The notes under the pieces were generated by a model. That model saw only the letters and a list, made by a program, of their open reading frames with translations. It was not told the DNA's origin and did no database searches. Position numbers and translations under genes: made by a program. This document shows positions 49,845 through 54,089 of a stretch of 64,000 bases of DNA, in pieces (the first letter of the stretch is position 1; every line of letters starts with the position of its first letter). The DNA comes from Hymenobacter cellulosivorans. Its GTDB lineage: Bacteria; Bacteroidota; Bacteroidia; Cytophagales; Hymenobacteraceae. The DNA is taken from contig NZ_CP095049.1 of assembly GCF_022919135.1 (NCBI RefSeq), positions 620,001-684,000 on the forward strand, given 5' to 3'.

Positions 49845-50019
49845 AAATAGTTGGGCTGGTCGAAAGCTGGGCTAAAACGCTTTGGCAGGGTGTGCAAACG
49901 TTTTTTCATACCCTTATTCCTATTTTATATTATAAATATGCATATAAATAGAGCGAATGTGGTGTAACCTGCGTAAATTCGCTACGTATTTGGTACACCA
50001 ACTCGTTAAGACGCCGCTC

Positions 50020-50409
50020 ATGAAAACATCTGCTACTCTCCCCGACATCCGTACCGAAGGCGACATCAAGACTTTGGTTGACACGCTGTGTTCCAAAGCC
50101 ACCAATGACACCTTGTTAGGAGCACGTTTTGGAGCGGCGGCCCGTATTCACTGGCCCCATTACCTCACCACCCAATACCGCTACTGGAGCAGCACCCTGC
50201 TGGGCAAAGGTACCCAGGAAGGTGAGCCCCTGCCCGAGCAACTGGCCCTGCCCACTAGCGGCCCCCATATAGAACACTGGGTAAAGCTCTTCTCTTCTGC
50301 CGTGGAAGAGTGCTTCGCTGGCTCTAAAGCCGAAGAAGCCAAAAAGCTGGCCCGCCAGATGGCCACCCGCCTCAGCCTGAGCCGCTCCCGCGAGCTGCCC
50401 GTCGACTAA
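50020..50409 (+). CDS. Group III truncated haemoglobin
   Basis: A 129-residue protein from the ATG at 50020; a longer reading adds 21 residues with no globin fit. Family features: 'DIKTLVDTLCSKATNDTLLG' (15-34), 'IHWPHYLTTQYRYWSSTLLG' (43-62; W56 and S57-58), and 'HIEHWVKLFSSAVEECFAG' (83-101) with the candidate proximal His at 83 or 86. It should bind haem and oxygen or NO in the cytoplasm. It sits beside an FNR-like regulator locus, but a direct link is not shown. The upstream 175-bp gap is AT-rich (49910-49960). Confidence 0.85.
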   Translation: MKTSATLPDIRTEGDIKTLVDTLCSKATNDTLLGARFGAAARIHWPHYLTTQYRYWSSTLLGKGTQEGEPLPEQLALPTSGPHIEHWVKLFSSAVEECFAGSKAEEAKKLARQMATRLSLSRSRELPVD

Positions 50410-50599: not shown

Positions 50600-51031
50600 C
50601 TATTCCAGCTCCTCCATGCTGTGGCGAAGCGCCTCGCGGGCCAGGCCCAGATTGGTGTCCTGAGCGTTGGCTACCAAATAAATGAACTGACTTCCGTCAG
50701 CAGAAAGCTTGATCAGGTGCAGCTGAGTACTTAAGCTAATCAGAATGTCGTCGATGGTTTCCCCGGTTAGCTGCAGGGCCGACATAGCCTTCTGCTTCTG
50801 CCGTACGACTTCGGCATTATAAGCGGCGGCCGTTGCCGGATTAAGCTGATCCGTAGTCGAATGCTGGGCCAGGGTGACACCCGATTCAGTTTGCACCACT
50901 GCCGCAGCCAGCAAGCCCGGCAAGGCCTGCACCAGACCCTGGATAACTTTGTTGGCCCTCGGCGCTACCTGGTCGAACGCTGCTGCTTTCTGGGCTGCCA
51001 AGACATGTTTACGGTAGGTTCTTGCTTTCAC
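50600..51031 (-). CDS. Roadblock/LC7-like protein, paralogue 1
   Basis: A 143-residue protein read from a GTG at 51029-51031; no in-frame ATG lies near. After a basic N-terminal helix (about 1-30) comes a Roadblock-type pattern: helix 'VIQGLVQALPGLLAAAVVQT', strand/turn 'ESGVTLAQHS', helix 'TAAAYNAEVVRQKQKAMSAL', strands 'DDILISLSTQLHLIKLSADG' and 'QFIYLVAN', last helix 'TNLGLAREALRHSME'. It is close to paralogue 3 and more distant from paralogue 2. Roadblock proteins regulate small GTPases; no GTPase gene is seen here. The family assignment is inference from the alpha-beta-beta-alpha-beta-beta-beta-alpha pattern. Confidence 0.68.
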   Translation of the reverse strand: MKARTYRKHVLAAQKAAAFDQVAPRANKVIQGLVQALPGLLAAAVVQTESGVTLAQHSTTDQLNPATAAAYNAEVVRQKQKAMSALQLTGETIDDILISLSTQLHLIKLSADGSQFIYLVANAQDTNLGLAREALRHSMEELE

Positions 51032-51081
51032 TTAAAGCGTAATTATTTCGGCATAGAAACCTCACAACCGGGTTTCTACGC

Positions 51082-51765
51082 TTACAATGACCACCAGCGC
51101 CGCGCCTTTTTCAGGGCTTTCTGCTCGGCTTTGTCGCGGGGCAGCAACGTCACGTTCTGGGTGCTGCTGCTGGTTACCTTCACTTCGTCGTTGGTGTAGC
51201 CACCGTAGCCGTACACGAGCGTGTTTTGGCCAATGGGCACCCGCATGGAGTAAGAGCCGTCGGCGTTGGTACTCACGCCCCGGAAAGTACCCTTCTGCAA
51301 TACCGTGGCCCCTACCAGAGGCTTACCGTTCTCGTCCAGAATCCGGCCGCGTACGGTCATGGTGAGCAGGGCGCTGGAGGCTTCGGCGGCTTCGGCAGCG
51401 GCCGGCAGCACTACTATGTTTTCCTCCAGGGGCGTATTGGGTAGGTTGGTGCCGGCAAATACGGCGCCGCCGAGCAGGGCACCAGCCACGACCATAGCCG
51501 TAGCCCGCTGCCGGAAACGCTGGGGCTCGGTCCGGATCAGCTCAAATTGCCGCTGCACCCAGCCCACGGGGCGCACCTGCTCACCCTGCTGCTTCATCTC
51601 GTAGAAGCGGTGCAGGGCCGCGTCGGCGCTGTGGCCGTTGGTTTTCAGATAGGCATCGACGGCCCGGGTGTGGGCGTGGGCCAGGTCGCCGCGCAGGTAA
51701 GCATCCCGGTACACGGGCAGCAGCTCACCGGTCTGCGGATTAAAGGGAGAAGCAGTTAGTTTCAT
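51082..51765 (-). CDS. One-TM protein with a CarboxypepD_reg-like domain
   Basis: A 227-residue protein from the ATG at 51763-51765 (MKLTASPFNPQTGELLPVYR). The first about 90 residues are soluble and helical ('RDAYLRGDLAHAHTRAVDAY', 'LHRFYEMKQQGEQVRPVGWV'), then a membrane segment at about 93-112 ('ATAMVVAGALLGGAVFAG'), and after a linker a CarboxypepD_reg-like domain (about 138-205: 'VRGRILDENGKPLVGATVLQ', 'STNADGSYSMRVPIG'). The layout is that of a cytoplasmic N-terminus tied to a periplasmic beta-sandwich, similar to anti-sigma-like signal proteins. It is between two Roadblock-like genes on the same strand. Function unknown. Confidence 0.78.
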   Translation of the reverse strand: MKLTASPFNPQTGELLPVYRDAYLRGDLAHAHTRAVDAYLKTNGHSADAALHRFYEMKQQGEQVRPVGWVQRQFELIRTEPQRFRQRATAMVVAGALLGGAVFAGTNLPNTPLEENIVVLPAAAEAAEASSALLTMTVRGRILDENGKPLVGATVLQKGTFRGVSTNADGSYSMRVPIGQNTLVYGYGGYTNDEVKVTSSSTQNVTLLPRDKAEQKALKKARRWWSL

Positions 51766-51856
51766 ACGTAAGGGAGTATAAAGGGGTAAAGGAGGAAATC
51801 CGACCGGTGACGCACCTACGGTCATCACTAGGTAAAGTCTGGCTTTTGGCACTGCT

Positions 51857-52303
51857 CTACTTCCCTTCCACACAGGCACGCATCACCGCCCGGGCCAGGG
51901 CCAGGTTCGTGTCGTGACAGTCAACCACCACGTAGAGTAGCCGCTGGCCGTCGGGCAAGAGCCGCAGCAGGTGTAGCTGCCCGCGCAGCGTAATCAGAAT
52001 GTCTTCAATCTGCTCGTCGGCCAGCTGCAGAGCCCGCAGGAGCTGGTGGGTTTGCCTGACCACCTCCGCATTGTAGCCGCACACCTTGCCCAGATTAAAG
52101 TCGCGGGAGGTGGAGTACGACGCCAGGGCTTGCCCGGAAGCCAGGTGCACCACGGCCCCGATGAGCAGCTCCGGCAAATCAGCCAGCAGCTGCTGTAGAA
52201 TGGCTTCGGCGGCCCCTCGCTCCGGCCCGGCCCCATTCGCAATAACCTTGTGGGTAGCTCCGGCTCCGGCAAACGGCAAGCGGCTAAAAAAATCAATCTT
52301 CAT
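51857..52303 (-). CDS. Roadblock/LC7-like protein, paralogue 2
   Basis: A 148-residue protein from the ATG at 52301-52303 (MKIDFFSRLPFAGAG). It follows the same layout as its neighbours: helix 'AEAILQQLLADLPELLIGAV', 'HLASGQALASYS', helix 'VCGYNAEVVRQTHQLLRALQ', strands 'EDILITLRGQLHLLRLLPDG' and 'RLLYVVVD', last helix 'TNLALARAVMRACV'. It is the most divergent of the three but keeps 'YNAEVVRQ', 'EDILI' and 'DTNLALAR'. It lies between the one-TM protein gene and paralogue 3. Confidence 0.66.
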   Translation of the reverse strand: MKIDFFSRLPFAGAGATHKVIANGAGPERGAAEAILQQLLADLPELLIGAVVHLASGQALASYSTSRDFNLGKVCGYNAEVVRQTHQLLRALQLADEQIEDILITLRGQLHLLRLLPDGQRLLYVVVDCHDTNLALARAVMRACVEGK

Positions 52304-52358
52304 GGCAGCATCCGCACCTTCCTAAAGTCAACACGGGTCCGGCGTGCAGCCCCGCAAA

Positions 52359-52402
52359 GCCTTTCCCAGGTTCTGGTTCGTAGCCAGCAGCCTGGGAAAG
52401 GC
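52359..52402 (-). terminator. Long hairpin between two Roadblock-like genes
   Basis: GCCTTTCCCAGG and CCTGGGAAAGGC form a perfect 12-bp stem, and the loop holds a further CTGG/CCAG pair. It is 30 bp after the paralogue 3 stop. It may end that transcript or only reduce readthrough. Confidence 0.6.
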
Positions 52403-52431
52403 CCGTACTCTGGTCATTGCCTGTAGTCGCC

Positions 52432-52812
52432 CTAGTTCAGCGTTGCTACGTGCGTGCGCAGCACTTCGCGGGCAATAGCCAGGTTGGTGTCGCGCGAATT
52501 CACGACCAGATAAATAAACTTGTTGCCGCTGTCGGTCAGCTTGAGCAGGTGAAACTGGTTGCTGAGCGAAATCAGGATGTCCTCGATTTTCTCGCCGGTC
52601 AGCTTCAGGGCCGACATGGCCTTCTGCTTCTGCTTCACAACTTCCGTGTTGTAAGCGGCAGCCGTGTCCGGGTTGAGGGCAGGGGAATTAGAGTGCGAAG
52701 CCAAGCTCATACCCGAACCGGCATCGACTACCGCTACGGCTACCAGACTGGGCAGATCCGAGATGATACCTTGCACTACTTTACCGGCGGGGGAATTCTC
52801 TGAGTAAGCCAT
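52432..52812 (-). CDS. Roadblock/LC7-like protein, paralogue 3
   Basis: A 126-residue protein from the ATG at 52810-52812 (MAYSENSPAGKVVQG). Pattern: helix 'VVQGIISDLPSLVAVAVVD', 'AGSGMSLASHS', helix 'TAAAYNTEVVKQKQKAMSAL', strands 'EDILISLSNQFHLLKLTDSG' and 'KFIYLVVN', last helix 'TNLAIAREVLRTHV'. It shares long identical stretches with paralogue 1 ('KQKAMSAL'). It is the first gene of the same-strand group that follows the FNR-like regulator, after a 551-bp AT-rich gap. Confidence 0.68.
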   Translation of the reverse strand: MAYSENSPAGKVVQGIISDLPSLVAVAVVDAGSGMSLASHSNSPALNPDTAAAYNTEVVKQKQKAMSALKLTGEKIEDILISLSNQFHLLKLTDSGNKFIYLVVNSRDTNLAIAREVLRTHVATLN

Positions 52813-53363: not shown

Positions 53364-54089
53364 TTACGCGTATTGCGTACTAATTTCAACCAGCTTTTCC
53401 GACTTCAGAATCGTGATGCTGCTGCCCTTAGCCGCAATAATGCCGTCTTCCTTAAGCTCCGACAGCAGCCGACTAGCCGTTTCCTTGGCTGTGCCCACCA
53501 ATGAAGCCAGATCCTCGCGGGAAATGGCCATGCTAAAGTCGGTTTTGTCAGGCTCCTGATACGTTTCCTGAAGTAGCAGCAAAGCATCAGCCAGCCGCTC
53601 GCGCACGGGCTTATAGGCCATGTTCAGCACCCGCTCATCCGATGAATTCAGGGCCTGCGACAGTTGCTTCAGCAAGGAGCCGGCAAACTGAACGTTGGTC
53701 TGGGCCAGAGCCAGCACGTCCTGCCGGGGCAGCAGGCACACCATGCAGTCGTCGAGGGCGACGGCCGAGGTACGGTAGTTGGTTTCGCCCCAGAGCGCAC
53801 AGATACCGATTAGGTCGCCGCCCTTGGCGAGGCGAATAATCTGCTCCTTGCCATCGCCACCAATCTTGGTGATTTTGACTTTGCCCTGATACAGACAGTG
53901 CAGCCCTTGGCAAAGTCCGCCCTCGGCATAAATCACTTGCCCCTTGCTATATACCTGGCTGGTCTTGCCCGACGAGAGCAGCCCTAACTGCTCGATTTGG
54001 CAGGCTCCTAGCGCGCCGCGGGTAGCCTGCGGGCAGGAAGTACAGGTCGGGGCCTCAAAGCTTTTAATGGTCTGTAAAAGATGTTTCAT
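53364..54089 (-). CDS. FNR-like Crp/Fnr regulator with N-terminal cysteine cluster
   Basis: A 241-residue protein. The N-terminus has C16, C19 and C30 ('CTSC', then 'GAC'), with further C60 and C65, a pattern that could hold an Fe-S cluster as in oxygen-sensing FNR. The beta-roll sensor follows (about 40-140: 'VYSKGQVIYAEGGLCQGLHC', 'IIRLAKGGDLIGICALWGET'), then the dimer helix and an HTH ('REDLASLVGTAKETASRLLS', about 190-209). It probably senses oxygen, NO or redox state. The Roadblock-like group lies downstream on the same strand, and a truncated haemoglobin is 3 kb away. Confidence 0.9.
   Translation of the reverse strand: MKHLLQTIKSFEAPTCTSCPQATRGALGACQIEQLGLLSSGKTSQVYSKGQVIYAEGGLCQGLHCLYQGKVKITKIGGDGKEQIIRLAKGGDLIGICALWGETNYRTSAVALDDCMVCLLPRQDVLALAQTNVQFAGSLLKQLSQALNSSDERVLNMAYKPVRERLADALLLLQETYQEPDKTDFSMAISREDLASLVGTAKETASRLLSELKEDGIIAAKGSSITILKSEKLVEISTQYA

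Follow-up and report, generated by a model that had tools for sequence, protein, structure and literature searches.

Roadblock domains count among the regulatory modules that bacteria and archaea have in common with eukaryotes, and most of what they are known to do involves small GTPases. In Myxococcus xanthus, according to excerpts of the published work, MglC is a Roadblock adaptor: RomR, a response-regulator protein bound by MglC (PMC10329633, PMC12719032), recruits MglC, and MglC recruits MglB (PMC7949163, PMC10329633, PMC12719032). The same excerpts describe MglB and MglC as homodimers (PMC7949163), with the MglC dimer sitting between two MglB dimers (PMC7949163, PMC10329633). For Ragulator, an excerpt of PMC5696360 describes a membrane-anchored protein that gathers Roadblock heterodimers head to tail. 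MglB-type Roadblocks uncoupled from a GTPase were reported as common (328 of 749) and experimentally uncharacterised in 2014, in the part of PMC4316618 drawn on here, and an extract of PMC4476040 presents HGbRL of Methylacidiphilum as a globin-Roadblock fusion. Here we analyse a stretch of 64,000 nucleotides from Hymenobacter cellulosivorans (NZ_CP095049.1, positions 620,001 to 684,000; hereafter the window), in which three Roadblock-like paralogues, A, B, and C, surround F2, a CarboxypepD_reg protein with one likely transmembrane (TM) segment. The likely TM segment of F2, the specialisation of the three subunits, and searches that found no GTPase of the cognate type lead us to propose that the Hymenobacter trio and F2 may form a membrane-tethered, GTPase-free Roadblock adaptor or scaffold acting like MglC or the Ragulator subunits, a reading to which we give a probability of about one half.

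The arrangement itself is confirmed by the list of open reading frames, which gives the order of transcription on the minus strand as Crp/Fnr regulator, A, B, F2, and C. A (52432..52812, 126 residues) consists of the core only. B (51857..52303, 148 residues) begins with MKIDFFSRLPF, of the conserved MxIPFLxRL type, and C (50600..51031, 143 residues) starts with GTG and carries a basic N-terminal tail, MKARTYRKH. F2, the candidate membrane anchor (51082..51765, 227 residues), lies between B and C. The intergenic gap is 551 bp between the Crp/Fnr gene and A, 128 bp between A and B, 91 bp between B and the corrected start of F2, and 50 bp between F2 and C; therefore, A-B-F2-C looks like one operon and the Crp/Fnr gene like a separate unit. 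By their ratios of non-synonymous to synonymous substitution (dN/dS) against two close relatives, A (0.03-0.04), B (0.14-0.17), C (0.06-0.11), and F2 (0.12-0.15) are all under purifying selection. These low ratios, together with an arrangement that is kept in the genus, indicate that the observation exceeds chance.

The initial annotation had called the three proteins Roadblock/LC7-like, from a shared pattern that includes the motifs YNxEVV, DILI, and DTNL. The motifs are real: the cores of A, B, and C align with 46 invariant columns, the other two copies being 42% and 60% identical to the 143-residue copy. The AlphaFold2 model of A (predicted local distance difference test, pLDDT, 92.5) has the order alpha-beta-beta-alpha-beta-beta-beta-alpha, as the Roadblock/LC7 superfamily requires, and matches MglB structurally with an E value of 2.9e-7. 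The predicted structure of A is thus clearly a Roadblock/LC7 fold, and the family assignment stands. PF03259 is missing from the Pfam matches of A, B, and C at E<=10, the sole match being DUF6981 (E 0.15, for A); a search of the whole genome (6.1 Mb, single contig) with PF03259 gave no match at E<=0.001, and the three proteins match no curated profile in the libraries searched. Since the fold is present, the miss reflects the reach of the Pfam model, and the best reading is that A, B, and C belong to a Roadblock/LC7 subfamily without a model in those libraries. Many relatives are named "hypothetical protein" in the databases. The genome has six subfamily places; besides the three of the window there are a pair around 0.92 Mb and a single place at 5.13 Mb. 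The A-type proteins of the two distant places (L071:7548-7910 and L072:7734-8105) differ by one residue over the 120 that they share, which suggests recent duplication or conversion.

How well is the arrangement kept? The subfamily is present in 47 of 99 sampled genomes (61 of the genus Hymenobacter and 38 of the order), and the F2 N-domain has a match in 46, all within the genus. Both occur in 45 of the 61 same-genus genomes, neither in 14, and each without the other in one, in a comparison where kinship inflates any test. A Roadblock place lies within 2.5 kb of at least 72 of the 78 strong F2 places (81 minus three weak ones), and 119 of the 150 Roadblock places among the matches listed (211 in all) are near F2. 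Loci were then compared that had been picked from search matches and are not a random sample. Where same-direction Roadblock genes lie just upstream of F2 (29 fetched loci), a Crp/Fnr gene stands upstream in 27 and a further Roadblock gene follows in 26 (L098 is one that lacks it). The 27 Crp-bearing loci have two Roadblock genes before F2 in 19 cases, three in four, and one in four; genes outside this Crp-Roadblock-F2-Roadblock core vary. A second layout was found in 14 fetched loci, with the order F2-B-A in 11, F2-A in two, and the pair on the other strand in one.

The paralogues are not simple repeats, since their N-termini differ by position (no extension, the MxIPFLxRL type, or a basic tail with YRK). 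By patterns written after the sequences had been seen, the first copy of two-copy loci has M[AS]YS at the core start in 19 of 19 cases; an MxIPFLxRL-like N-terminus occurs in 39 of 41 B-position copies (18/19, 4/4, 3/4, 12/12, and 2/2 by group) and in no other group; and among the 26 downstream, C-position copies, 25 show a basic tail with YR. In a tree of 126 columns with many open forks, the B copies of the second layout form one supported group (100/99), its A copies cluster with tandem and single copies (98/96), and a supported set of 59 rows joins B-like copies with 14 of the 26 downstream copies, including C of the window. Three clean clades for A, B, and C are ruled out, as the downstream copies need seven changes on the tree. 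From the N-terminal classes and their partial agreement with the tree, F2 thus recurs in the company of an A-like and a B-like copy; C is a third kind of member, with a basic tail and, in some loci, an A-like core. The B N-terminus was also considered as an amphipathic membrane helix; the hydrophobic moments of seven examples are no higher than those of shuffles (the share of shuffles that equal or exceed them is 0.33-0.88), and it is taken as a conserved peptide and nothing more.

F2 matches the CarboxypepD_reg families PF13715 (E 5.8e-15) and PF13620 (2.5e-11), its outer part (residues 138-208) resembling the corresponding domain of SusC-type receptors. Its start is likely the ATG at 51765, giving 227 residues, rather than the GTG at 51879, because most homologues share an MKLTA-like start. 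An N-domain of about 87 residues precedes the hydrophobicity maximum and likely TM segment at residues 88-108. In 42 of 43 homologues the peak hydrophobic stretch begins at residue 87-111, with two to five net positive charges before it; the exception, L158, has its peak near the N-terminus. A hydrophobic stretch preceded by positive charges suggests an N-in, C-out membrane anchor. The C-terminus (51085-51102 in the window) is aromatic, for instance RHWWQF or KHWLFF: phenylalanine is final in 40 of the 43 homologues, the window copy ending in leucine, and a tryptophan falls within the last six residues in 42. No known family was found for the N-domain among the Pfam matches of 14 members. An anti-sigma domain, an idea formed by eye, found no support, with no anti-sigma family in those matches and an hhalign probability of 0.2% against a zf-HC2 protein (L166, the sole valid template). 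In genome G443, an F2-like gene lies directly 3' of a rhodopsin gene (L150:6240-8025; PF01036 E 2.6e-34), with no Roadblock gene near.

No Ras-like GTPase appears in the list of open reading frames of the window locus, and none of a cognate type was found in the genome with the three queries used (PF00025, PF03029, and a GTPase from the related locus L106). The L106 query matched none of the 99 genomes; its matches in four of 25 subfamily-bearing genomes across the phylum serve as its positive control. PF03029 did not reach its cut-off in any of 12 Hymenobacter genomes and gave sub-threshold matches in four (G403, G417, G420, and G432); it missed G328, which the L106 query had found. PF00025 exceeded its cut-off in the genome of the window solely in frames of 462 and 1076 residues, and in no short frame. 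When named genomes were scanned for the GTPase, a single partial match turned up, in Emticicia, with none of the module's genes nearby. These searches see those GTPase types only; from their results, Hymenobacter probably lacks a GTPase of the linked type.

Beyond the genus, the company that these proteins keep is different. The subfamily occurs in 25 of 395 genomes across the phylum, and PF03259 in 15 of those 25, none of them Hymenobacter; like the genome of the window, G166 has no match. In the Flavobacterium group, all 13 PF03259 matches, from 11 of the group's 15 genomes, have a same-strand subfamily match less than 200 bp away (coordinates compared by eye). In G005, G280, and G388, the subfamily gene is grouped with both a canonical Roadblock and a Ras-like GTPase. 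In G005, a receiver domain (PF00072 2.1e-21) is fused to the subfamily Roadblock (L106:8680-9501), beside the canonical Roadblock and near the GTPase gene; G388 has a gene for a protoglobin (PF11563 2.6e-30; L146:7789-8544) between GTPase and subfamily gene. A ParA/MinD-like ATPase (AAA_31 4.5e-21) lies between two subfamily Roadblock genes in G219 (L110:7743-10668), a possible nucleoside triphosphatase (NTPase) partner other than a GTPase. Plasmid matches extend beyond Bacteroidota, in 27 plasmid records of which five are Hymenobacter. In an eight-row alignment with 18 invariant columns, the relatives from Deinococcus, Streptomyces, Methylomagnum, and Acinetobacter show 39-41% identity to A. 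On a plasmid of Acinetobacter wuhouensis (L187:47-1924), an annotated Roadblock/LC7 gene is followed by one for a 321-residue protein that fits no known family and then by a subfamily gene.

How might such a module work? A, B, and C would form a heteromeric cytosolic assembly in which A and B are the recurring pair and the basic-tailed C is added as a third subunit. F2 would tether this assembly to the inner membrane: its N-domain would keep the Roadblock subunits on the cytosolic side, while the CarboxypepD_reg domain would bind something in the periplasm. In the manner of MglC between RomR and MglB, or of the p18-anchored Ragulator, the whole would serve as an adaptor or scaffold, without a Ras-like GTPase. 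The anatomy of the module is well supported; we infer its assembly and function, that is, the binding of the subunits to one another and to F2, the topology, and the output.

The window proteins share the Roadblock fold with MglC (PDB 7ct3), which heads the PDB sequence matches for two of the three profiles built from the subfamily (E 7.9e-4 and 0.026); the Hymenobacter-weighted profile has no match to it. As with MglC, subfamily relatives adjoin MglB-like Roadblocks and are linked to response regulators, and the receiver-Roadblock fusion of G005 echoes the RomR-MglC pair as portrayed in the excerpts cited above. Unlike the MglC system, the window genome has no PF03259 protein, and no MglA-type GTPase was found. 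The signal for orthology to MglC is not specific, hhalign favouring canonical Roadblocks no less. With Ragulator (p18/LAMTOR1, LAMTOR2-3, and LAMTOR4-5), on the excerpted description, the locus shares one membrane anchor and several Roadblock paralogues at the level of genes only. It differs in that the anchoring would be done by a TM protein, one of whose domains is presumed to be periplasmic, that no Rag-like GTPase was found, and that the assembly is a proposal. MglB/MglA pairs and the Streptomyces conservons (CvnA-D) likewise have the Roadblock fold and a membrane protein in the locus, whereas the six genes scanned here include no GTPase, kinase, or other conservon protein and give no PF03259 match. 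In contrast to the orphan MglB-type set, gathered by MglB/PF03259 similarity according to the part of PMC4316618 used, the window proteins go undetected by PF03259 and come with a conserved anchor gene of their own. More tentative is a broader proposal, which we think doubtful: that this is a bacterial Ragulator-like device in which a TM protein with a periplasmic domain would nucleate a three-Roadblock heteromer at the inner face and pass envelope information to the cytosol without a GTPase, within an unmodelled, phylum-crossing subfamily whose ancestral role would be to partner canonical Roadblock-GTPase pairs.

Several observations weigh against the tethered adaptor. MglC is not singled out by hhalign, where the subfamily scores 26.4 and 32.7 against it and canonical Roadblocks 34.2, and in one profile search that matched MglC a chance match to a viral spike protein was just four-fold worse. 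The TM segment is borderline in 16 of 43 F2 homologues, where its mean hydrophobicity lies below the usual limit of 1.6; a single-sequence structure model of F2 reached a pLDDT of 40.7, and nothing was drawn from it. In G444, an F2-like match lies beside a rhodopsin-like gene, named by resemblance, with no Roadblock gene (L151:6384-7630); F2-like genes beside rhodopsins imply that the F2 N-domain has other uses. The sampled genomes are related, so their counts overstate independence, and no subfamily match was found in 15 of the 61 same-genus genomes, which makes the family dispensable. Away from F2 are 31 of the 150 listed Roadblock places, and two of the 29 loci (L100 and L101) lack both the Crp/Fnr gene and the downstream Roadblock gene. 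Finally, in eight of 14 fetched F2-free loci the Roadblock gene or genes have two other neighbours, a hybrid of histidine kinase and receiver and a response regulator of the LytTR type; the same two families recur throughout, the domains were checked in L094, and a plasmid record of H. tibetensis agrees.

Roadblock proteins of known function mostly work with NTPases. It is therefore conceivable, although we consider it unlikely, that the paralogues control an NTPase, either unrecognised or housekeeping, whose gene lies elsewhere in the genome, so that the system would be a usual Roadblock-NTPase pair except that its partner genes are unlinked. The two long PF00025 frames, the sub-threshold PF03029 matches, and the ParA/MinD-like ATPase of L110 fit such a partner; the linked-type GTPase, however, is missing from all 99 genomes under a query that finds it elsewhere, and no short frame passes PF00025. 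Distinctly unlikely is that the copies are tandem duplicates acting as independent homodimers, with differences in dosage or expression and F2 merely co-transcribed. MglB and MglC are homodimers in the excerpt of PMC7949163; the downstream copy has an A-like core in some loci (e.g., L075, L076, L084, L086, and L089), and 10 of the 26 downstream copies have an internal M[AS]YS start, as duplication or conversion predicts. Nevertheless, the N-termini stay position-specific, F2 is accompanied by A- and B-position copies elsewhere too, and F2 itself keeps its Roadblock neighbours. Least probable is that the Roadblocks are docking modules of a histidine kinase/response regulator pathway to which F2 is a separate input: the kinase-LytTR loci, the receiver fusion in G005, the binding of RomR by MglC in the excerpts, and kinase-family frames several kb off at the edges of four second-layout regions (L156, L160, L162, and L164) favour it, but no such pair adjoins the window locus (open reading frames inspected by eye; six genes scanned).

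The Crp/Fnr-type regulator (53364..54089, minus strand; PF00027 1.9e-19, HTH_Crp_2 2e-17) has a conserved cysteine set, with Cys16, 19, 30, 65, and 118 in 27 of 27 homologues and Cys115 in 26. Its top PDB match is a Crp/Fnr regulator (2.5e-24), and an FNR-type one matches at 1.7e-17, in alignments that start at residue 27 or later and leave the first cysteines uncompared. FNR holds an iron-sulphur cluster, and the conserved cysteines indicate that this regulator may do so too; it may also tie expression of the module to oxygen. A group III truncated haemoglobin gene (49957..50409, plus strand; PDB 2ig3 E 1.3e-5) is the convergent neighbour and lies outside the core module; its family, F8, is present near some such loci and missing near others. 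A Roadblock coupled to a globin recalls HGbRL, as extracted from PMC4476040, and the G388 protoglobin; unlike HGbRL, the window haemoglobin is a separate gene with inconstant linkage. A defence system (no PADLOC match at E<=1) and a phage gene (best PHROG E values 0.16-0.25) were also rejected.

The initial annotation, which saw here a signalling module of Roadblock-like subunits with a membrane-anchored sensor and no GTPase, is thus partly supported. Neither of the two outcomes that it had named as refuting, a lack of structural match to Roadblock/LC7 or genes unlinked in all related genomes, came about. The fold, the likely one-TM partner, the linkage to the CarboxypepD_reg and FNR-like genes, and the lack of a GTPase in the locus held up; the distinct N-termini, the second layout, the canonical Roadblock and GTPase neighbours of the relatives, and the parallels with MglC and Ragulator had been overlooked. 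A full-text literature search for Hymenobacter and roadblock, with most subscription journals outside its coverage, found no paper, and looser searches gave no title or abstract describing such a module among the matches listed. GTPase-uncoupled Roadblocks being already common on the partial account of PMC4316618, finding one without a GTPase is no novelty. What is new is that these proteins form a subfamily without a profile model, that the three differ according to position, and that a membrane partner is conserved with them.

Three specialised Roadblock subunits and an anchor, with no cognate GTPase found, would suggest a module that works as a scaffold alone, and it would offer a bacterial comparison for the origin of Ragulator-type platforms. 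Its Flavobacterium relatives, paired with canonical Roadblocks and some of them named F. johnsoniae, make the question testable in a genetic model. More generally, the module suggests that bacteria may have reused the ancient Roadblock module for other signalling or scaffolding.

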